Shown here: positions 1-21,468 of the stretch, in pieces
Position numbering within the stretch: the stretch's first letter is position 1
How the letters are laid out: every line of letters begins with the position of its first letter
From: a virus
DNA: 21,468 bases
Direction: 5' to 3' (one strand)
IMG/VR virus record: IMGVR_UViG_3300046819_000128
Coordinates: 1-21,468 of that record
Program-made: the position numbers and the translations under genes
The notes under the pieces: model-generated
What the model saw: only the letters and a program-made list of their open reading frames with translations
What the model was told of the DNA's origin: nothing
The model's database searches: none

Positions 1-127
1 GCGCTAGATAGTTATAGATATATATTAACAAGGCTAGGTCGCCAAGGGTGGGTTTAATAGGTGAGGTCGCTAAGGGTTGTTGCTGGTACTTTATATGTGA
101 AAGTCGCCAGCAACTTGGGGTTTTATT
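1..127. repeat. Left terminal inverted repeat, 127 bp
   Basis: Position k of the left end is complementary to position 21469-k without a mismatch from 1 to 127; position 128 is the first mismatch. Inside are two near-identical 13-mers, AGGTCGCCAAGGG (36-48) and AGGTCGCTAAGGG (64-76), a shorter relative AAGTCGCCAG (101-110), and a hairpin (79-114). The inner edge includes the stop codon of the neighbouring HNH gene. The length equals the largest k-mer used by common short-read assemblers, so the true repeat may continue outward. Whether it is a genome terminus or the edge of an internal inverted repeat cannot be told here. Confidence 0.93.
79..114. other. Hairpin inside the terminal repeat
   Basis: GTTGCTGG (79-86) pairs with CCAGCAAC (107-114). 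Within it ACTTT (88-92) pairs with AAAGT (100-104), leaving a small internal loop and a 7-nt apical loop. On the minus strand it begins 9 nt after the HNH stop codon, so it may terminate or stabilise that transcript, although no T-run follows in that direction. Read rightward, it is followed closely by TTTTATTT, so it could also stop transcription entering from outside. The same structure occurs at 21355-21390. Confidence 0.6.
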
Positions 128-644
128 TAGCAAATTCTTTATGTAATTCTAACCTAGTATTGGTAATCCATGCTATAGCTTCTTCCTTTCCCTCAGGAGT
201 TTGCTTAAATAATTTTCTATACATCTTTTTATTCGCAGTTACATGGGCGTACCAATGCGTATCTCCAACATATGAAAGACCTTTAATACCTGTCCTAGCT
301 TTAACAGCCCCTCCTTTATTCTGAGCATTTTCACATCTAGTAGCTTCTCTTAGATTATCCCATTTATTATTTAAAGCGTTACCATCTATATGGTCTATAA
401 AATTTGTAGGCCATTTTTTAGTCATGTAGAACCAAATCACTCTATGTAGTTTATAAGTCTTCTGAGCTATTTTAACTCTAGCATAAGCTTTACCATTGGC
501 TGTAGCACTTGTAGTAGAACCTAATATATCTCCGGCACTAACCCTATGATTATTTACTTTCCATCTAACCAGACCTGTATCTGGACAATAATCAATGAGT
601 TTCACTAAGTCTTCATGAAGTAAGCTATCTTGTTTTGTTTGCAT
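123..644 (-). CDS. HNH homing endonuclease with AP2 DNA-binding domain (type A)
   Basis: A 173-aa predicted free-standing nuclease. The HNH core is LHRVIW (His67), DHIDG (84-88) and NNKWDNLR (92-99), the pattern of phage HNH_3 proteins, which cut DNA through a His-metal finger. Residues about 117-170 (GIKGLSY, WYAHV) resemble the AP2 DNA-binding domain often attached to these enzymes. I chose the ATG at 644 because AGGTG lies 5 nt upstream; the longer frame from a TTG at 692 would begin inside a GGTCGCCAA repeat. The gene runs outward and stops at the inner edge of the terminal repeat. Such genes usually spread by cutting alleles that lack them. It resembles the HNH gene at 18141-18626 in domain order. 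Confidence 0.85.
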   Translation of the reverse strand: MQTKQDSLLHEDLVKLIDYCPDTGLVRWKVNNHRVSAGDILGSTTSATANGKAYARVKIAQKTYKLHRVIWFYMTKKWPTNFIDHIDGNALNNKWDNLREATRCENAQNKGGAVKARTGIKGLSYVGDTHWYAHVTANKKMYRKLFKQTPEGKEEAIAWITNTRLELHKEFAK

Positions 645-682
645 ATACGCACCTATCAGAAAAAATAACACCTTAACATTAA

Positions 683-692
683 AGGTCGCCAA
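683..692. repeat. Extra copy of the terminal GGTCGCCAA motif
   Basis: AGGTCGCCAA occurs here in the same orientation as the three copies in the left terminal repeat. It lies upstream of the outward HNH gene, 39 to 48 nt before its start codon, and next to a TTGAC on the minus strand (699-695). A role as operator or protein-binding site is inferred only from the repetition. Confidence 0.45.
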
Positions 693-3277: not shown

Positions 3278-4744
3278 TTAATTACTAGCAGTCTTATCCC
3301 ATAGTTCGGTTAGCTCTCTTACATTGTCGAAAATATCATAGACATTAGAAGGTAGAGTTAGCTGGTACTTGGCTCTGGTCATAGCTACATATAGTAGATT
3401 CAAGGTTTGATTATCTTTCAGCAGTTTAACTAGGTCATCAATACCACCTTCCTCTGTTTCCCGTAACATATCCATATCTAAAGTAACTGAATCATATTCT
3501 AAACCTTTGCTACGGTGGGCTGTAACAATAGTAAACTTACCTTCAGCAGGTGTTTCAGCAAGTACACCTTTAATAGCAACTATATTACCATGAGTACCTC
3601 TACCTTGTGACATTTTAAAAGATAACATAGCTAGTCGTTTTAGGTCTGGGTTACGTTCTGCTTCTGTAGCAAAGTCACCTATAGTATTAAACCTACGCAA
3701 TTCAGCATTAGGGAATTTAGGCTTTGACCCACTACCTAGAGCAGATAAATGATAAAGTTTAGACCATAAATCTTGTAAATCAGCTACTACATGGACTTTA
3801 TAGTTCTCTTGAACAGCCGCAAGTAGATAGTCAATAATAGAAGCGTTAGTTCTAACAATAATAGCACTTGTTTTAACTGGTTTAACCTCAGCCTTACCTA
3901 TAATTGGCCTATCATTACCAGCAATAGAGGTAAGTTTAGTAGCTAACTCAGCTATTTCTGGTGTAAAGCGGAAACTCTCAGTCAAATACAAGCGTTTAAA
4001 TGTATCTGGAATACCATCAAAAGCATTAACTGCACCACGCCACTCATAAATAGACTGGTAACTGTCACCTACCATAATTAACTGACTGTTAGTCTGGTTA
4101 TAGAATATATCTAAGGTAACTGGGTTAGAGTCCTGTGCCTCATCTAAATAGATAACCTCATAGTCTTCTAAATTAGGATTACTTAACTGATACATTTTCA
4201 AATAAACATCATGGGTCATGTTTACAGTACTTGTCTTAGTTGTAACTGCCGCCCAAGCTTGAAGAACTAAAGGTAAATAATAGTCATAACTAGCTCTATC
4301 ATGTTCTAGGAAAGCATAAGTAAACTCACCTAGAGCTAAACTATCCGACTGACAGAAAGCTTTTATAATATCCAGAACTTTAAATATAGTTTCTAGTTGT
4401 TTGTCTTCTGTTAGGTAATCTAACTGCTCACCATATAGCTCTACAAACTGTTTAGTATCAAAGAAACCAGATACCTTCTTGTACATCTTCTCTGGTGCAA
4501 TGATAGTAGCATAAGCTAGAGAATGTAAAGTCCTACACTCTACCCAAGAAGGGAATTTAGTCTTAGCTTCTTCTGCTATGGACTTGTTAAAGGCTATATA
4601 AAGTGATTTACGCTGTAGTTTATCTGCTATAAGTGTGCAAGTAGTTGTCTTAGCTGCACCAGCGAAGGCTGAAATAGCTAGGTTACTGCCTTTACTAGCT
4701 TCTAATACGATTTGTTCTTGTTCTAAAGTAGGTTTAATTGCCAT
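3278..4744 (-). CDS. UvrD/Rep-like SF1A DNA helicase
   Basis: A 488-aa motor with all SF1 motifs in order: Walker A AGAAKTTT (Lys32); Walker B YLDEAQD; motif III MVGDSYQSIYEWRGA; motif IV FRFTPEIAELA; motif V VTAHRSKGLEYD; motif VI LLYVAMTRAKYQL. This is the UvrD/PcrA/FBH1 type, which moves 3' to 5' on ssDNA. It is shorter than bacterial UvrD (about 720 aa), as expected for phage versions with reduced accessory subdomains. Walker A has Ala where the usual AGxGKT has Gly. It overlaps the gene before it by 11 nt; GGAG lies 9 nt before the ATG. Probable roles are fork unwinding or recombination control. The rightward operon encodes a second SF1 helicase of a different type. Confidence 0.92.
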   Translation of the reverse strand: MAIKPTLEQEQIVLEASKGSNLAISAFAGAAKTTTCTLIADKLQRKSLYIAFNKSIAEEAKTKFPSWVECRTLHSLAYATIIAPEKMYKKVSGFFDTKQFVELYGEQLDYLTEDKQLETIFKVLDIIKAFCQSDSLALGEFTYAFLEHDRASYDYYLPLVLQAWAAVTTKTSTVNMTHDVYLKMYQLSNPNLEDYEVIYLDEAQDSNPVTLDIFYNQTNSQLIMVGDSYQSIYEWRGAVNAFDGIPDTFKRLYLTESFRFTPEIAELATKLTSIAGNDRPIIGKAEVKPVKTSAIIVRTNASIIDYLLAAVQENYKVHVVADLQDLWSKLYHLSALGSGSKPKFPNAELRRFNTIGDFATEAERNPDLKRLAMLSFKMSQGRGTHGNIVAIKGVLAETPAEGKFTIVTAHRSKGLEYDSVTLDMDMLRETEEGGIDDLVKLLKDNQTLNLLYVAMTRAKYQLTLPSNVYDIFDNVRELTELWDKTASN

Positions 4745-11159: not shown

Positions 11160-12030
11160 AACAAATATACTATTATATGGTGAAGGTGGTTCTGGTAAAT
11201 CCAGCTCAGTAGCTACTGTCTTTAAACTGTTAGATAAAAATCCTAACTTGAAAGTAAGATACCTGATGACCGAAGCGAACGCGTTAGCAGGTATGGAAGA
11301 TGGTATTAAACGTCTAGGCATTACTCTAAAGAAAGGTCAGTTACATTACATGGTTTGCAGACCTACTTATAATCCTAAGTACACTTCAGCCGCAGTAGTT
11401 AAAGACTTTAAAGAGAACTTCCTTAACCTATCTGAAGCTGATGCTTTGAAAGTTAAGATAGGTGCTGGAGACCGTTCTAAACATAATGAATTTATCTCTA
11501 TCTTAGAAGGTTTAGCAGTATTTAAAGGCACAGACTATGTTACTAAAGAAGTTGATAACTTGGGTGACTATCTACAATGGGACGAGGATACTATCCTTGT
11601 AGTAGATAGCTTGACAGCCTGTGTAGATTATCTAGTTTCAACTGTTAAAGGTAGTCGTTCTGCAACTACTCAGAAAGATTATGGTGATGTACAGAATAAT
11701 CTAATGGCTAAGATTATTGTACCATTAACTGAACAATGTAGATGTTCTATCATTATGCTAGGTCATCCTGTTATTGGTGAAGACCAGACAGTTAAACAGC
11801 CAAAAGAAGAGGATTTAAAAATCACTAAACTATATCCTAAGACTTTTGGGCAAGCGTTAAACAATACTATCGTATCTAAGTTCTCCGAAGTCATCTACTC
11901 TTATGTTGATAGACAAGATAACTTCTGGTTCGCTGGCAAGAAAGAGGGCGTAGCAACTAGCCCTAGAAGATTCCCTAGACAAGATAAACTGAAGCCAGAC
12001 TTCTCAGCATATCCGGTCTTTACCGATTAA
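11152..12030 (+). CDS. RecA-fold ATPase, Sak4-like recombination protein
   Basis: 292 aa. Walker A GEGGSGKSS (Lys16) right at the N-terminus; a Walker B-like LVVDS at 149-153; a sensor-like IIMLGHPV near 205; a conserved C-terminal run (YVDRQDNFWFAGKKEGV). This is the AAA_24 / Sak4 class: short RecA-core ATPases that help anneal ssDNA, working with the phage SSB. The gene overlaps the nuclease gene by 8 nt and is followed by a probable SSB, the usual Sak4 partner order. It lacks the C-terminal domain of true RecA. Confidence 0.82.
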   Translation: MIKTNILLYGEGGSGKSSSVATVFKLLDKNPNLKVRYLMTEANALAGMEDGIKRLGITLKKGQLHYMVCRPTYNPKYTSAAVVKDFKENFLNLSEADALKVKIGAGDRSKHNEFISILEGLAVFKGTDYVTKEVDNLGDYLQWDEDTILVVDSLTACVDYLVSTVKGSRSATTQKDYGDVQNNLMAKIIVPLTEQCRCSIIMLGHPVIGEDQTVKQPKEEDLKITKLYPKTFGQALNNTIVSKFSEVIYSYVDRQDNFWFAGKKEGVATSPRRFPRQDKLKPDFSAYPVFTD

Positions 12031-12805: not shown

Positions 12806-13927
12806 ATGCACAGACCCAAACACCCCTCACCTAAACCAGTTATGGTTATAGTTGATTATCCGATTCAAAATGAAGTAGAAAGAGATTTTCCTTGGTCAGG
12901 AGCTTCTCACTTATCTTTACTATCTGACCTAGCTAAAGCAGGAATACCACAGAGATTTATCCATACTACTTATCTTAGTTACGAAAGACCAGATAAAGAT
13001 AGCTATGACTGGGCTACTGATTTCTGCAAGAAGAAAGGTTTAGAAACTAAACCGCATTATCTGCAACTAGAGCATCAGAAAGACCTATATGTTTCACCAG
13101 AACTAATGTTAGAGTTTCAGATGTTAGTTAATGAAATTGCTAAAGTAGAACCTAAGTTAATTATTGTAGCTGGTAAGTGGAGTTTATTCTTCCTATCTGG
13201 TAAAGTAAGTTATACAGCTACACAAGGTTCAGGTAAATCACAGAAACCTTTAGGTGGTTTATCTAAGTACAGGGCTTCGCTAGAGACTACTTGGGGAGGG
13301 CTTGGACTGCCAGAGAATATAATGCTTCCATTACTACCACCAGTAACTAAACAACGTAGTCCAGATAAAATACCTGTAATGCAATGGGATTGTTTAAAAG
13401 CTGGTGATTTATTTAGAGGGCTTATCGAGGAAGGTAAAACAGTTGCTAGTTACTTAGAACCAAAACAAGAGTTTATACTTGGAACAGAACTTGAAACTGT
13501 TACTGGTTTTATGACAGAGCTATTAACAGAATTAGATAAAGGTAGCTTGCTAGTATCAGTTGATATTGAAACTCGTTATAGTTCCACAATAGATTGTATT
13601 GGGATTGCTTGCCAGAATGACAGAGGTATCTGTATTCCCTTCTCTACTTTAGCTAGTCCTAACTTCTGGACTGCTGAAGAGGAATATAAGGTATTTGAGT
13701 TGCTCTTAAAAGTCCTTAACCATGAGAACATACAAGTAACAGGGCAGAACTATGCTTATGATAGCCTCTTTATCTCTACCTTCTGGTTAGTAAAAACTAA
13801 AGCTCACCTAGATACTATGGTTCTACATCATGTTCTATATAATACAATGGAAAAGAACTTAGCGTTTCTAGCTAGTATTTACTGCGATAACTATCAATTT
13901 TGGAAAGACGACCAACAACATGGCTAA
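12806..13927 (+). CDS. Family A DNA polymerase, N-terminal part (UDG-like domain and most of the 3'-5' exonuclease)
   Basis: 373 aa. Residues ~10-210 resemble a uracil-DNA-glycosylase-like domain: DFPWSGASHLSLLSDLAKAG, KLIIVAGKWSLFFL and LLPPVTKQRS match its structural blocks, but the usual catalytic residues of the first motif are not evident, so it may be structural. Residues ~250-365 hold exonuclease motifs I (SVDIETR, Asp253 and Glu255) and II (GQNYAYD, Asp319), then DTMVLHHVLY. The frame stops before motif III, which lies in the next frame (YNIKD). The next ATG overlaps this stop (13920-13927). The two halves could be made as separate chains by coupled translation, joined by a +1 shift, or be one gene with a sequence error. 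AGAGGA precedes the ATG. Confidence 0.85.
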   Translation: MHRPKHPSPKPVMVIVDYPIQNEVERDFPWSGASHLSLLSDLAKAGIPQRFIHTTYLSYERPDKDSYDWATDFCKKKGLETKPHYLQLEHQKDLYVSPELMLEFQMLVNEIAKVEPKLIIVAGKWSLFFLSGKVSYTATQGSGKSQKPLGGLSKYRASLETTWGGLGLPENIMLPLLPPVTKQRSPDKIPVMQWDCLKAGDLFRGLIEEGKTVASYLEPKQEFILGTELETVTGFMTELLTELDKGSLLVSVDIETRYSSTIDCIGIACQNDRGICIPFSTLASPNFWTAEEEYKVFELLLKVLNHENIQVTGQNYAYDSLFISTFWLVKTKAHLDTMVLHHVLYNTMEKNLAFLASIYCDNYQFWKDDQQHG

Positions 13928-15344
13928 CTATACTGAACAAGACGTAACACGCTGGCGTTACAATATAAAGGACATTCTCTATACCAGAGAAATAGCTCTT
14001 AACTTACAAGGTGTTCTAAGGTCACAGAATCCTAAACTACAAGAGTTCTACGAGTTCCAGCAATATCATAATGCACCTGCTTTAGATAGAGTGATGCACA
14101 GAGGTATTAAGATAGACTTAGCTAAGAAAGACGAACTCTTTACTCAACTAACAGCTTTATTAACTGATGTAGAAAAGAAACTAGAGTATCTTATTGGGGA
14201 GCCATTCAATCCAAAGTCTTTACCACAGATTAAGGCAGTCTTTAAAGACCTTTTAGGTATTAAGCCTATTATTGATAAAAAGACAGGTAATGAGAGCTTT
14301 TCTTCTGGATATATGTTACAATATCTTGAACAATATCCTATGTATAAGCCCTTGATTACTTTGATTTTGGAATATCGAAGTATAGGTGTTTTCCTTAGAA
14401 CCTTTGTATCCGCTAAAGTTGATGATGATGGTAGAATGAGAACCAGCTATAACATTGCTGGAACTAAAACCTACCGACTATCTAGTAGAAAGAACCCTTT
14501 TGGTAATGGCGCTAATCTAGCTAACATTCCATCTAAAGGTAAGATAGACCTTAAATTCTCTTTAGCAACTATAGAACCTACAGAGGAAGTAGAATCAGAC
14601 GAGAGTTTTGTTGTTGGTGAGTATGAAGGTATAACTAAGTTGCCTAACTGTAAAGAGTTCTTTATACCTGATGATGGTTATACCTTCTTTAATGCTGACT
14701 ATAGTGGTGCTGACGCTATGATAGTAGCTTGGGATAGTGATTGCGCTTGGCTACAAAAGTTCTTTACTACCTCTAATGAGAAACTATATATTTATATTGG
14801 TTCACATTACTTACAAAGAGAACTTACAGTACATGATAAAGAGTATAAATTATATAAACAGTTTATCCATGGTACTAACTATGGAATGATGGAAGCTAAA
14901 GCTGCCGCTAATGCTAATATGCCTTTAGATGAAGCTAGGAAACTTAGACAATGGTACTTTAAACTATGTCCAGAGATTCCACAATGGCATAAAAGAATAG
15001 CTAGTGATATTAGTTCAAGAGGATATGTCGAGAATATCTTTGGAGCTAGGGGGTATTTTATGAATAAAGACAGCCCGACATTATTAAACCAAGCCTATGC
15101 TTTTATACCACAATCAACTATTGCTATCCTAGTTAATAAAGGTTTAGTTAATATAGACCAAAAGGAGAAAGATATACAAGTTCTACTACAAGTGCATGAT
15201 GCTTTAGCAGGCCAGTTTAAAACAACAGACTTAGATGCGCCTAGTAGAATTGTTAAACATATGAGTGTTGAGTTACCTTATAAACGTCCACTGGTAATTC
15301 CAGTAGACATAACCACAAGTGCTAAAAGCTATGGAGATTGTTAG
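13920..15344 (+). CDS. Family A DNA polymerase, C-terminal part (exo motif III, palm, fingers)
   Basis: 474 aa. It opens with the missing exonuclease motif III (WRYNIKD, Tyr14 and Asp18). Polymerase motif A is NADYSGAD (Asp260), motif B KQFIHGTNYG (Lys313, His317, Tyr321), motif C QVHDAL (His426, Asp427). Compared with E. coli Pol I: Asp replaces Glu710 after DYS; Lys313 stands at Arg754; His317 stands at Lys758; Tyr321 at Phe762, as in T7 polymerase; and Ala follows HD where Glu883 is usual. Both metal-binding aspartates are intact, so activity is expected. GGAAAG lies 12 nt before the ATG, a weak SD, which suits coupling to the first half. Confidence 0.9.
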   Translation: MANYTEQDVTRWRYNIKDILYTREIALNLQGVLRSQNPKLQEFYEFQQYHNAPALDRVMHRGIKIDLAKKDELFTQLTALLTDVEKKLEYLIGEPFNPKSLPQIKAVFKDLLGIKPIIDKKTGNESFSSGYMLQYLEQYPMYKPLITLILEYRSIGVFLRTFVSAKVDDDGRMRTSYNIAGTKTYRLSSRKNPFGNGANLANIPSKGKIDLKFSLATIEPTEEVESDESFVVGEYEGITKLPNCKEFFIPDDGYTFFNADYSGADAMIVAWDSDCAWLQKFFTTSNEKLYIYIGSHYLQRELTVHDKEYKLYKQFIHGTNYGMMEAKAAANANMPLDEARKLRQWYFKLCPEIPQWHKRIASDISSRGYVENIFGARGYFMNKDSPTLLNQAYAFIPQSTIAILVNKGLVNIDQKEKDIQVLLQVHDALAGQFKTTDLDAPSRIVKHMSVELPYKRPLVIPVDITTSAKSYGDC

Positions 15345-16516: not shown

Positions 16517-16942
16517 ATGAGTGATATTAAACAAACATTAAATGAACGTGGTAAACGATATGGCTCTTTCAAAGGTCATGCAGAAGTATCTCAAAGACTA
16601 AAAGTAGTAGTGCAGGAAGAATTGGAAACTAGAGAGAAGTTTCTATCACCAGTACAACAAGAAGCTGTAGATATGATTTTGCATAAGTTAGCAAGAGTTG
16701 TAAATGGTGATGCTAACTACATCGACAGCTGGAGAGATATTGTAGGGTACACTCAACTTGTTGTTGATGAGTTACTGGCAACAGATGGCTCTACTGATGT
16801 TAAGACTTTGCCTTTAGAAGTAATTGATGGGCAATTAGTAGTTAAGAGTTCTAAACTATTACCTGAAGCTACAATAGCTCAGGAAGAATATGTTATTAAC
16901 TTTGGTGATAGAGGTGATAGGGATGGATATAAAAGTAGATAA
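16517..16942 (+). CDS. DUF6378-type phage protein
   Basis: 141 aa. LNERGKRYGSFKGHAEVSQR, EAVDMILHKLARVVNGDANY and IDSWRDIVGYTQLVVDELL are the conserved blocks of a widespread phage/prophage family I know as DUF6378 (ERGxRYGxF, then MIxHKxARIxNGD, then DSWxDIxGY). The helical core with acidic residues recalls MazG-like nucleotide hydrolases, but no activity is established to my knowledge. The last ~40 residues are less conserved. GAGG precedes the ATG. The HNH gene that follows overlaps its end by 20 nt. Confidence 0.8.
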   Translation: MSDIKQTLNERGKRYGSFKGHAEVSQRLKVVVQEELETREKFLSPVQQEAVDMILHKLARVVNGDANYIDSWRDIVGYTQLVVDELLATDGSTDVKTLPLEVIDGQLVVKSSKLLPEATIAQEEYVINFGDRGDRDGYKSR

Positions 16943-17522
16943 GCCAGTCAATTTATCAGCTTTAAGAGCTAGGAACAATTGTATAGAATGTGATAAACGT
17001 ATAACAGCTAAAGCAGTACGTTGCCAAAGTTGCGCTAATAAGATAACAAGTAAAATTCACGGACAAGCAAAAACCAGATTATATATAATATGGAGAGGTA
17101 TGCTTGGTAGATGTTATAGCAAGGGTAATGCTTCTTATAAATTTTACGGAGCTAAAGGTATTACAGTTTGTGAGGAATGGGTGGCTTCTTTTGATACCTT
17201 CAAAGAATGGGCTCTGGTTAATGGCTACTCTACCGAACTTACACTAGATAGGATTGATTCCTTTAGTAAATATAGTCCTGATAATTGTAGATGGGCTTCT
17301 AAAGAGGTGCAGTATACTAATAGGAGATTAATGTCTAACAATTCTTCTGGGTTTAGAGGGGTTGGTAAGGATAAAGGTAAAAGTAGATGGTACGCTAGAA
17401 TAGCTCTAAATGGTAGAAGAATTAGACTAGGGCTATTTGATTCTGCTATAGAAGCTGCTGTAGCATATAACAACTATGTAATTGCTAAAAATCTACCACA
17501 TCAATTAAATATAATACCATGA
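16923..17522 (+). CDS. HNH homing endonuclease with zinc finger and AP2 domain (type B)
   Basis: 199 aa. An N-terminal zinc finger (Cys20/23 and Cys34/37) precedes the nuclease region IWRGMLGRCY, YGAKGITVCEEW, LTLDRID (109-112) and YSPDNCRW (117-124), then an AP2 DNA-binding domain (SGFRGVGKD, WYARIALNGRRIRLG; ~143-190). AGAGG lies 10 nt before the ATG at 16923. It is wedged between the DUF6378-type gene, which it overlaps, and the ThyX-like gene, with which it overlaps by 4 nt, so it seems to have entered without breaking either. The same architecture is encoded at 20732-21346, with clearly diverged sequence. Confidence 0.88.
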   Translation: MDIKVDKPVNLSALRARNNCIECDKRITAKAVRCQSCANKITSKIHGQAKTRLYIIWRGMLGRCYSKGNASYKFYGAKGITVCEEWVASFDTFKEWALVNGYSTELTLDRIDSFSKYSPDNCRWASKEVQYTNRRLMSNNSSGFRGVGKDKGKSRWYARIALNGRRIRLGLFDSAIEAAVAYNNYVIAKNLPHQLNIIP

Positions 17523-18094
17523 ATATAAAAATACTAGAAGAAGCAGGTTATGAAAGTGCTTTAAAAGGTCTAGCTTTAAGCTACTATAGGGAAGGCTATG
17601 ACTTTGATACTTGGTGGACTATAGAAAGAAGAGAGAAAGCTGAGAAACAGTTAAGAAATCTAGCTTTTAAAGGCGGTGGTCACTCAAAGGCTATAGAATC
17701 TATGGTAGTTTGGATGCTTATAGCTGCTCCTAGAAGTTTCTGGCAAGAGTTTGATACTTATAGAGTAGGTATGACAAAGAACAGCGCTTCTAGTATGCAC
17801 ACCCTTCTAAAAGAACCTGTAACTGAAGCCAATTTTGAGGAAGGAACTTCTTCTTTACTTATAGCTAATTTAAATAAACTTATAGAAGATAAGGTAGATA
17901 TAACAACTGTAAAGAATAATTTACCTGAAGGTTACATACAGACTAGACAGGTATGTGTAAATTATATGACTTTGCAGAACATCTATAAACAAAGGAATAA
18001 GCATAAATTAGTATATTGGAGGACTTTCTGCCAGTTCTTACTAGATAACCTAGAGTTTCCTGAGTTTATTAGAGATGAAACTAAACTGGCCTGA
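17519..18094 (+). CDS. ThyX-like phage protein
   Basis: 191 aa. GGGHSKAIESMVVWM, then APRSFWQEFDTYRVGMTKNS, ASSMHTLLKEP, and a later LPEGYIQTRQVCVNY with a C-terminal helix match a phage family I remember with PRYWWQEFDTYRVG and STMHT motifs. It looks distantly like flavin-dependent thymidylate synthase (ThyX), but the ThyX signature RHRxxSxNExSxR is absent, so thymidylate synthesis is not assured. The neighbourhood (dUTPase, DUF6378) fits pyrimidine metabolism. The start overlaps the HNH gene by 4 nt and is probably coupled, because no clear SD is seen. Confidence 0.65.
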   Translation: MNIKILEEAGYESALKGLALSYYREGYDFDTWWTIERREKAEKQLRNLAFKGGGHSKAIESMVVWMLIAAPRSFWQEFDTYRVGMTKNSASSMHTLLKEPVTEANFEEGTSSLLIANLNKLIEDKVDITTVKNNLPEGYIQTRQVCVNYMTLQNIYKQRNKHKLVYWRTFCQFLLDNLEFPEFIRDETKLA

Positions 18095-18140
18095 CTTAAA
18101 GTTTCCAGCAATTAACTTATTAACCTACCCTAGAGGTAAT

Positions 18141-18626
18141 ATGAAACTAGACAAACTAACAGCTAGAAAACTAAAAACCTTAGTTATCTATGACCCTGAC
18201 TCTGGTTTATTCTATAGAAGAGGAGCTAATTGTTTAGCTACTAATCAAAGACCGGATGGTTATCTATCAGTATATATAACTGGTAAGCATTACGAACTAG
18301 CCCATAGATTAGCCGTATTATACATGACTGGAGAATATCCAGAAGGTGAAGTAGACCATATAAATGGTTTAAAATCGGATAATAGATGGGATAATCTTAG
18401 GGTAGTAACTAAAGCTAACAACCAATGGAATAGTAAAATTAGAAAAGATAACTCTTCAGGTGTTAAGGGCGTAAGTTGGATAGAGCGAGACAAAGCTTGG
18501 GTAGCTAGAATACAGGTAAACGGTAAAAGATTAACTATAGGCTACTTTAAAACTTTAGAAGAAGCTCAAGAAGCTATAGCAGAAGCTAGAGTAACATATC
18601 ACGGTAGTTTTGGGAATAGAGGTTAA
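18141..18626 (+). CDS. HNH homing endonuclease with AP2 domain (type A)
   Basis: 161 aa from the ATG at 18141 (AGAGGT 5 nt upstream); an earlier in-frame start at 18075 lies inside the preceding gene and is less likely. DPDSGLFYRRG, AHRLAVLYMTGEYP, VDHINGLKSDNRWDNLR (71-87) are the HNH_3 core. SSGVKGVSW, WVARIQVNGKR and IGYF (107-135) are the AP2 domain. It is more regular than the left-end relative at 123-644 and has the consensus ending HGSFG. It sits between the ThyX-like and ligase genes with a 46-nt gap before it and one base after it. Confidence 0.9.
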   Translation: MKLDKLTARKLKTLVIYDPDSGLFYRRGANCLATNQRPDGYLSVYITGKHYELAHRLAVLYMTGEYPEGEVDHINGLKSDNRWDNLRVVTKANNQWNSKIRKDNSSGVKGVSWIERDKAWVARIQVNGKRLTIGYFKTLEEAQEAIAEARVTYHGSFGNRG

Positions 18627-19881: not shown

Positions 19882-20630
19882 TAGATAGTGAAACTACCGG
19901 CTTGGTGGAGCCACAAGCCTGTGAAATAGGTTGGCTTCATGTACAAGATACATTAGCAGAGTTTAAACAGGCTATAGTAGATAATCCTGTAGCTTTTCTT
20001 AGTGATAACAGCTACTTTCTATCAGTTTATGAGCAGCGTTTTCGCCCTACTAAAGCTATAGAACTGCAAGCAAGTAAAGTTACAGGTATTTATATGAAAG
20101 ACGTGCTACATTGTCCTTCTATCACTACCTTTGAGTTCCCTAAGTCAGTTAAATATATGATTGGACATAACATAGCATATGATTGGAGGGTGTTTGGTAA
20201 ACCCGATGTTAAACTTATCTGTACTAAGGAACTAGCCCAGTTGGTCTTTCCTAAAGATAAAGGTTTAAAGAGCCATAAGTTGACTACTATCATTGAATGG
20301 CTATACCCTGAAGAGGGGGCGACTCTCGTATCTAATGCTCATGGTGCTGTACTTGATTGTAAACTTGTTTATTTAGTTTTGTTAAAGGTATTAGAGAAGT
20401 TACCTCAAGTAGAAACATGGGAACAGTTAGCTAGTTTATGTTCTCAAGGTAAAAAGAGCTATGAGGAACTGAATGAACCATTAGTAGAGATGAAAGTAAT
20501 ACCGATAGGCAAATATAAAGGTAGTAAATTTTCAGAAATACCTACTGACTATTTAAAATGGCTAGGGAAGCAAAAAGACCTATCCCCTACGCTAGAAAGG
20601 GCTATTAAAATCGAGTTGACTGTTAGATAA
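19866..20630 (+). CDS. DEDDh 3'-5' exonuclease, ExoX-like
   Basis: 254 aa. Exo I FIVDSETTGL (Asp7, Glu9); exo II MIGHNIAYDWRVF; exo III NAHGAVLDCKLVY with His and Asp, i.e. the DEDDh class that includes DnaQ, RNase T and ExoX. The C-terminal ~45 residues (IGKYKGSKFSEIPTDYLKWL) match the small domain found at the end of exodeoxyribonuclease X and alone as DUF3820. It likely degrades single strands or blunts ends during repair, separate from the polymerase's own proofreading. The ATG at 19866 is preferred over a GTG at 19857; no strong SD is seen, so coupling to the overlapping upstream gene is likely. Confidence 0.87.
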   Translation: MQVFIVDSETTGLVEPQACEIGWLHVQDTLAEFKQAIVDNPVAFLSDNSYFLSVYEQRFRPTKAIELQASKVTGIYMKDVLHCPSITTFEFPKSVKYMIGHNIAYDWRVFGKPDVKLICTKELAQLVFPKDKGLKSHKLTTIIEWLYPEEGATLVSNAHGAVLDCKLVYLVLLKVLEKLPQVETWEQLASLCSQGKKSYEELNEPLVEMKVIPIGKYKGSKFSEIPTDYLKWLGKQKDLSPTLERAIKIELTVR

Positions 20631-20644
20631 TGTAAGTTTAAAAT
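20616..20644 (+). promoter_or_regulatory. Predicted promoter TTGACT-17-TAAAAT
   Basis: TTGACT at 20616-20621 and TAAAAT at 20639-20644 are 17 bp apart, overlapping the end of the exonuclease gene. The expected start point, near 20651, is the first base of the folded element described next. Confidence 0.6.
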
Positions 20645-20650
20645 GTGACT

Positions 20651-20696
20651 GTGGCTAGGGTAGCTCCCGAAAGATAGTAGCACAACTATCAGCCAC
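20651..20696 (+). ncRNA. Compact three-way-junction RNA element in the leader of the terminal HNH gene
   Basis: All bases but the loops and short linkers pair perfectly. P1 is GTGGCT (20651-20656) with AGCCAC (20691-20696). P2 is GGG (20658-20660) with CCC (20666-20668), loop TAGCT. P3 is GATAGT (20673-20678) with ACTATC (20685-20690), loop AGCACA. A single A joins P1 to P2, GAAA joins P2 to P3, and P3 abuts P1. An alternative GCTA-GGG-TAGC hairpin (20654-20664) would break P1 and P2. It does not match the riboswitch or ribozyme cores I know. It may act as a cis-regulatory leader or a stable 5' end. Confidence 0.55.
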
Positions 20697-20731
20697 TTCC
20701 TTCCTTGTGCGAAACTATAGGTGCAATAGTA

Positions 20732-21346
20732 ATGATTACAAAAATAAGTATACCAGCATACCCACATAACTGTATTATCTGCGGAAATCCTAGATTAAGA
20801 ACTTTACGAGAGATAAAATATAGACCAAATGCCCCTTGTAGAGCTTGCTCGCAAGCCAAAAGAGATGCTTCAAAAGGGATGGGTGGTTTGGCTACTTCGA
20901 GAATAGCTGGAATTTGGTATAAAATGAAAGATAGGTGTAATAACCCAAATAATACCCATTATAGTTACTATGGGGCTAATGGTATTACCGTATGTGAAGA
21001 ATGGTTAGTATTCGCTAACTTCAATAACTGGGCGAATCTAAATGGTTATGAAGAACATCTAACTATAGATAGGATAGATGGCACTAAAGGATACTCACCA
21101 GATAACTGTAGATGGGCTACTAGAGAAGAACAAGCTCAAAATACCAAATTATTATTTAAGCATAATACCTCAGGTTATCGAGGAGTAACTTTTAATAGAA
21201 AGGATTCTAAATGGGTAGCCCAAATAAAAATAAAAGGTAAGTGCATTATAATAGGTAGGGCTGGGTCAGCTAAAGAAGCAGCTAAACTAAGAAATAACTA
21301 TATTATAGACAATAAGCTAAAGGCACCTCTAAATACAATCGAATAA
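20732..21346 (+). CDS. HNH homing endonuclease with zinc finger and AP2 domain (type B), outward at the right end
   Basis: 204 aa from the ATG at 20732 (AGGTG ~9 nt upstream). Zinc finger Cys14/17 and Cys36/39; nuclease region IWYKMKDRCN, YGANGITVCEEW, LTIDRID (110-116), YSPDNCRW (121-128); AP2 domain ~148-195 (TSGYRGVTFN, WVAQIKIKGK). It shares the whole layout with the protein encoded at 16923-17522 but is diverged, so it is not a recent duplicate. It has its own predicted promoter and a folded leader, unlike the other HNH genes. Its stop codon lies within the right terminal repeat, mirroring the unrelated type A gene at the left end. Confidence 0.88.
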   Translation: MITKISIPAYPHNCIICGNPRLRTLREIKYRPNAPCRACSQAKRDASKGMGGLATSRIAGIWYKMKDRCNNPNNTHYSYYGANGITVCEEWLVFANFNNWANLNGYEEHLTIDRIDGTKGYSPDNCRWATREEQAQNTKLLFKHNTSGYRGVTFNRKDSKWVAQIKIKGKCIIIGRAGSAKEAAKLRNNYIIDNKLKAPLNTIE

Positions 21347-21468
21347 AACCCCAAGTTGCTGGCGACTTTCACATATAAAGTACCAGCAACAACCCTTAGC
21401 GACCTCACCTATTAAACCCACCCTTGGCGACCTAGCCTTGTTAATATATATCTATAACTATCTAGCGC
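21342..21468. repeat. Right terminal inverted repeat, 127 bp
   Basis: Exact reverse complement of 1-127. The repeat units lie at 21421-21433, 21393-21405 and 21359-21368, and the hairpin at 21355-21390. The TAA stop of the last HNH gene (21344-21346) lies within it, so two unrelated HNH genes share the same 3' flank. Confidence 0.93.

Follow-up and report, generated by a model that had tools for sequence, protein, structure and literature searches.

At one end of a 21,468-nt viral contig from IMG/VR (the whole stretch analysed here, hereafter the window), a gene for an HNH-type nuclease is preceded by a 46-nt RNA element with three short stems. What is this element, and does it act on the gene behind it, as a leader, or elsewhere, as a small trans-acting RNA? 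The original prediction, which was made from the sequence alone, left both answers standing. The features of the locus are collected in Table 1.

Table 1. Features of the HNH locus, in window coordinates (SD, Shine-Dalgarno site; the SD hairpin, decoy pairing and promoter are predicted)
Feature	Position	Strand	Details
Sigma-70-like promoter	20616-20644	+	-35 TTGACT 20616-20621; 17-nt spacer; -10 TAAAAT 20639-20644
Insertion cassette (promoter, leader, HNH gene)	20631-21346	+	Behind the exonuclease stop codon; edges approximate, to within a few tens of bases
Three-way junction	20651-20696	+	P1 20651-20656/20691-20696; P2 20658-20660/20666-20668; P3 20673-20678/20685-20690
Unpaired parts of the junction			A 20657; P2 loop UAGCU; GAAA 20669-20672; no linker after P3
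P3 loop AGCACA(A), putative switching strand (anti-SD and anti-decoy)	20679-20685	+
Pyrimidine linker UUCCUUCC	20697-20704	+
Decoy UUGUGC	20705-20710	+	Complementary to P3 loop GCACAA 20680-20685 (pseudoknot)
SD hairpin	20714-20730	+	Stem ACUAU 20714-20718/AUAGU 20726-20730; loop AGGUGCA 20719-20725
HNH/AP2 homing-type endonuclease gene, cassette cargo	20732-21346	+	204 aa; PHROG_374, E 2e-48; AP2 a weak Pfam match

The junction and its relatives

The element, GUGGCUAGGGUAGCUCCCGAAAGAUAGUAGCACAACUAUCAGCCAC, lies exactly where the original prediction had placed it, with perfect stems of 6, 3 and 6 bp and the linkers A, GAAA and none. Its predicted fold (-16.4 kcal/mol, z -2.67) is equalled by 2 of 200 shuffles and by 18 of the 6122 46-nt windows of the contig, and a longer stretch of 96 nt folds ordinarily (z -0.41). 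Folding energy alone is therefore weak proof, and it is homology that supplies it. At least 120 viral stretches match the first-half pattern GTGGCTNGGGNNNNNCCCGAAA, nearly all of them retaining the closing strand of P1 while P3 varies freely, and the 22-mer GTGGCTAGGGTAGCTCCCGAAA or a close variant is found together with P1' in about 100 viral contigs. Several of the copies that match the first-half pattern are named int-alpA RNA by Rfam (RF02996), where the family is typed as 'Gene; sRNA'. In a literature search without the founding paper, int-alpA appeared only as a name in a list of sRNAs.

The window has no match to Rfam's own models at the gathering score, nor do short stretches of it match at E values up to 10. 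The same holds for an Rfam scan of six other members of an A/T-rich branch (L260, L268, L269, L273, L274 and L298). However, a covariance model (CM) built only from 15 copies that Rfam accepts as int-alpA finds the window element with 36.0 bits (E 4.9e-8), as well as the divergent-branch members that were tested, the weakest at E 0.005. A second CM, built from 49 diverse copies with the window excluded, gives 45.6 bits (E 1.5e-12) and has this element as its sole match in 21 kb. As models made from other copies find what Rfam's model misses, these searches identify the element as a divergent relative of int-alpA RNA that lies outside Rfam's threshold. A branch of the family rich in A/T escapes the current Rfam model. 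An Rfam scan alone would wrongly suggest an orphan RNA, and the original prediction could match the element to no known riboswitch; the homology CMs contradict an orphan status.

Other identities were considered and rejected. C4 antisense RNA, the first suspicion, was not found at the element. A hammerhead ribozyme, already dismissed in the original prediction, does not fit either: the CUGANGA core opposite GAAA is absent, the linker there being UA, and Rfam gives no match. A parser match elsewhere in the window (4647-4683) is attributed to chance and is not found by the CM.

The original prediction named the lack of covariation in homologues as grounds for abandoning it, and strong covariation was found. 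Among 49 distinct copies, 87.5% of the cells in P1-P3 are paired, double changes number 156 against 51.5 after shuffling, and the covariation score is 0.584 against 0.160, a value reached by none of 500 shuffles; versions of the stems slid along the alignment score at most 0.138. The copies were gathered partly by fixed sequence patterns and by a parser demanding P1-P3, so that this test leans towards structure, whereas there was no selection in the sample for the decoy and SD pairings described below. The stems vary freely and the unpaired bases of the junction (UA, GAAA and a closing U or A) are invariant. The hairpin of GCTA with TAGC that had been put forward as a competing fold does exist in the window; only 20 of 55 homologues have it, so it is not a conserved switch, and we rejected it in that role.

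The proposed promoter is present upstream, its -10 box ending 6 nt before the element. By itself, the match is at chance level (10 sites found against 10.6 expected), but homologues carry a -10 box at the same place and lend it support: a perfect TATAAT stands directly upstream of the element in 13 of 66, compared with 2.3% of shuffles, and the upstream -10 box is extended by TG in 16. The element thus sits at a likely transcript start.

Two pairings of one loop

We compared about 60 non-redundant copies from phages and prophages. A start codon with an SD is present in 59 of 66 non-redundant entries, 74-100 nt from the start of the element in nearly all copies. In the window this distance is 81 nt, the HNH gene starting at ATG 20732 rather than at TTG 20705, with the SD AGGUG at 20719-20723. 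Between the junction and the start codon lies, 7-17 nt beyond P1, a decoy site complementary to the P3 loop. The linkers across the family are 40% T, 29% C and 5% G. Just before the start codon, a hairpin stem of at least 5 bp can form in 63% of copies, compared with 9% after shuffling, and its loop holds SD-like letters in 46 of 54.

The P3 loop matches both the decoy and the SD of its own copy. When loops and tails were swapped among copies 20000 times, the mean loop-decoy pairing of 5.54 bp (3.29 permuted; z 18.1) and the mean loop-SD pairing of 4.89 bp (3.54 permuted; z 11.3) were never reached. Thus, the loop UCGUCA can pair with the decoy UGACGA and the SD AGACGAGG, UCCUAA with UUAGGA and AUAGGA, and UGCACC with GGUGCA and GGAGUGCAG. 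Forty-nine copies can form 4 bp or more with each partner, and every one of them uses the same loop bases for both; the two pairings are therefore mutually exclusive. A held-out set of CM-found loci from whole genomes, limited to the roughly one half that could be parsed, agrees for the decoy (z 6.0, 14 unique loops) and for the SD (z 4.7, 13 unique loops), again with 0 of 20000 permutations reaching the observed values.

In the window, the P3 loop can form 6 bp with the decoy and 4 bp with GUGC (20721-20724), the alternative partner that lies with the SD in the hairpin loop, and these 4 bp are barely above the permuted average. The five-pair stem of its SD hairpin is weak, being mostly A-U, and in a simple fold of the window leader the decoy is paired with the SD region rather than with the P3 loop. 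Control by CsrA was also considered and set aside, as the GGA through which it would act is missing from the loop of the window's SD hairpin, AGGUGCA.

The near-fixed distance to the start codon, the covarying decoy and SD pairings and the SD in a hairpin loop argue that the leader acts in cis, and a translational switch is its most likely role. We think it probable that the mRNA of the HNH gene has the element as its 5' leader, that transcription starts at about the element's first base, and that the choice of the P3 loop between decoy and SD sets the output of nuclease. In such a leader, a promoter just upstream would start the transcript at about the first base of the element, and the three-way junction would present the P3 loop to two alternative downstream sites. 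With the loop on the decoy, the SD hairpin loop would be open to ribosomes (ON); with the loop on GUGC, the SD would be closed (OFF). The choice, which may be made by something that the junction senses (a ligand, a protein or the kinetics of folding), would set the yield of nuclease per message.

Several other readings of the same features can be weighed against this one. Rfam's label would make the element a free trans-acting small RNA standing before a gene by chance, and an exposed, variable P3 loop could suit targeting. This is very unlikely, given that an SD and a start codon lie at a near-constant distance in most entries, that the loop keeps its complementarity to the neighbouring SD and decoy as these change between copies, and that no terminator was found between the element and the ATG in the window. 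The put sites of phage HK022 are a cis-acting antitermination RNA, and a structured RNA with which phage transcripts begin might likewise modify RNA polymerase near the promoter; however, antitermination needs neither a conserved SD, nor an SD hairpin, nor a set start-codon distance, and we give this reading the least credit of all.

A constitutive leader is harder to dismiss, although we consider it unlikely. The junction would guard the 5' end from decay and the pseudoknot would free the SD hairpin, giving steady low expression with no switching. The first base of the element is paired and coincides with the predicted transcript start, and the element has its own promoter and moron-like positions, such as that ahead of orf23 in phage D3, all of which suits this reading, but the complementarity of loop and SD would be unneeded and yet is strongly conserved, including in the held-out set. 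A strict riboswitch, in which the junction is a binding pocket for a ligand or protein and the decoy/SD choice its output, is a narrower form of the reading that we prefer, and a possible if somewhat doubtful one. Invariant unpaired junction bases beside freely varying stems, two mutually exclusive outputs and a pyrimidine linker that fits a pseudoknot speak for it. Nevertheless, the downstream genes have no common pathway, so no metabolite is suggested, and occurrence mainly in phages and prophages of Pseudomonadota fits a host protein equally well.

Cassettes, cargo and distribution

The element travels with its promoter and its gene. In a close relative (G001) whose exonuclease protein is 90% identical, the terminal repeat follows the exonuclease gene within some 25 nt, and neither an HNH gene nor the element is present downstream of that gene. 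Another relative (L136/G002), with a polymerase 99% identical, does not cover the site after the exonuclease; it carries a different HNH gene at the stop codon of an ATPase gene, with its own -10 box TATAAT and a leader of the same family, and this site is empty in the window near 12028. These two comparisons indicate that promoter, leader and gene form one minimal cassette, which moves as a unit and inserts just behind genes. At the ATPase site (L136:7470-8090), the ATPase gene has acquired a TAG, and the TAA used by the ATPase gene in the window closes the HNH gene here.

The cargo of such cassettes is varied. PHROG or Pfam assigns at least 18 of the 53 non-redundant proteins encoded downstream to homing-type nucleases, of the HNH_3, NUMOD4 and AP2-HNH types or homing endonucleases with NUMOD3. 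The others include DUF1376, Rha, PAPS reductase, an integrase, a methyltransferase and many unknowns; this non-nuclease cargo is moron-like. In named phages, the leader precedes an HNH gene after the head genes in Pseudoalteromonas phage TW1, a Seg-like endonuclease gene in Rhizobium phage RHph_X2_25, a Rha gene in Acinetobacter phage vB_AbaS_Gln, and orf23, between tail genes and with a terminator downstream, in Pseudomonas phage D3. Enterobacter phage Tyrion is a further carrier. Single contigs may hold two leader copies ahead of different genes (L265 and L201). A fixed link between the leader and the HNH family of the window was rejected, since the leader is absent from all eight loci that encode related HNH proteins. 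The association with HNH genes is a preference, not a rule. The original proposal of a structured leader ahead of a homing endonuclease gene, and controlling it, would appear to be right, with the amendment that the leader is not HNH-specific. Of note, in one contig a sub-threshold match to a group I intron (L053:4397-4657, 40.3 bits) starts close to where a homing endonuclease gene with the leader ends.

The leader is found mainly in phages and prophages of Pseudomonadota. It occurs in 23 of 274 genomes from the class of Buttiauxella (Gammaproteobacteria), in 5 of 190 from the class of Rhizobium (Alphaproteobacteria) and in 2 of 196 from the class of a Lachnospiraceae bin, each count including the centre genome, which was picked for having a pattern match. 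Searches without a positive control found it in none of 198 genomes each from the phyla of Cyclobacterium and of an Actinomycetes bin.

As for the rest of the contig, it is dominated, at 13920-15344 and as a whole, by replication-type genes (family A polymerase, ATP-dependent ligase, dUTPase-like and helicase-like), and no virion gene was recognised among the proteins examined. Three more HNH genes, at 123-692 (-), 16890-17522 (+) and 18075-18626 (+), have no leader; the region of the second is unaligned in a relative (L002). The contig ends in a perfect 127-nt inverted repeat (1-127 and 21342-21468) that contains a GTTGCTGG...CCAGCAAC hairpin, and G001, too, has at its ends an exact inverted repeat, 127 nt long and homologous in sequence. 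As 127 nt fits an assembler k-mer, a longer true inverted repeat probably flanks the replication region.

Significance and comparison with known systems

Our analysis re-reads a catalogued, unexplained RNA family as a gene leader with a concrete putative switch, and links int-alpA to phage cargo, both mobile homing endonucleases and other moron-like genes. It is tempting to go further and propose, tentatively and with confidence just short of even, a portable cis-acting translational switch that many phages, prophages and mobile elements, mainly of Pseudomonadota, would use to run their cargo, chiefly homing endonucleases, on one common signal from host or infection. Its parts would be a host-type promoter, a three-way junction able to offer its loop either to the SD or to the decoy copy of it, and the SD hairpin. 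If this is correct, accessory genes in many phages of this range are under a single shared regulatory module.

With int-alpA RNA, the window element shares the three-stem junction, the UA and GAAA linkers (the U of UA being able to pair with the closing A in the window) and the conserved letters. The Rfam model ends in an unpaired 3' tail at the position of the decoy, and lacks the start codon of the window leader and its predicted pseudoknot and SD hairpin. Both the name and the Rfam type suggest an RNA near integrase and alpA genes that acts in trans, whereas the window's element adjoins an HNH gene and Phage_integrase accounts for only 1 of 53 downstream genes.

In the SAM-II and preQ1-II translational riboswitches, a pseudoknot decides whether the SD is free. 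The predicted pseudoknot of the leader would control its SD in a similar manner; unlike in these riboswitches, its SD lies in a hairpin loop of its own, and a decoy provides a second copy of the pseudoknot partner. HEARO/omega RNA also lies next to HNH-type nuclease genes. The original prediction had set it aside, and rightly so, as the window element has no Rfam match and is much shorter, and the protein is of the HNH/AP2 homing type, not IscB.

A parallel in setting is offered by phage homing endonucleases whose translation is limited by hairpins that sequester the ribosome-binding site, namely mobE of Aeh1 and I-TevI and segB of T4 (PMC3014915). Such precedents make translational control plausible here. 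The likeness consists in a leader RNA structure upstream of a phage homing endonuclease gene, and in the window, too, the SD lies in an RNA structure, the predicted hairpin loop, ahead of the PHROG_374 open reading frame. In mobE, I-TevI and segB, the SD or start codon is buried in a helix, whereas here a junction loop would pick the decoy or the SD and, unlike those leaders, the window-type leader also heads many other genes.
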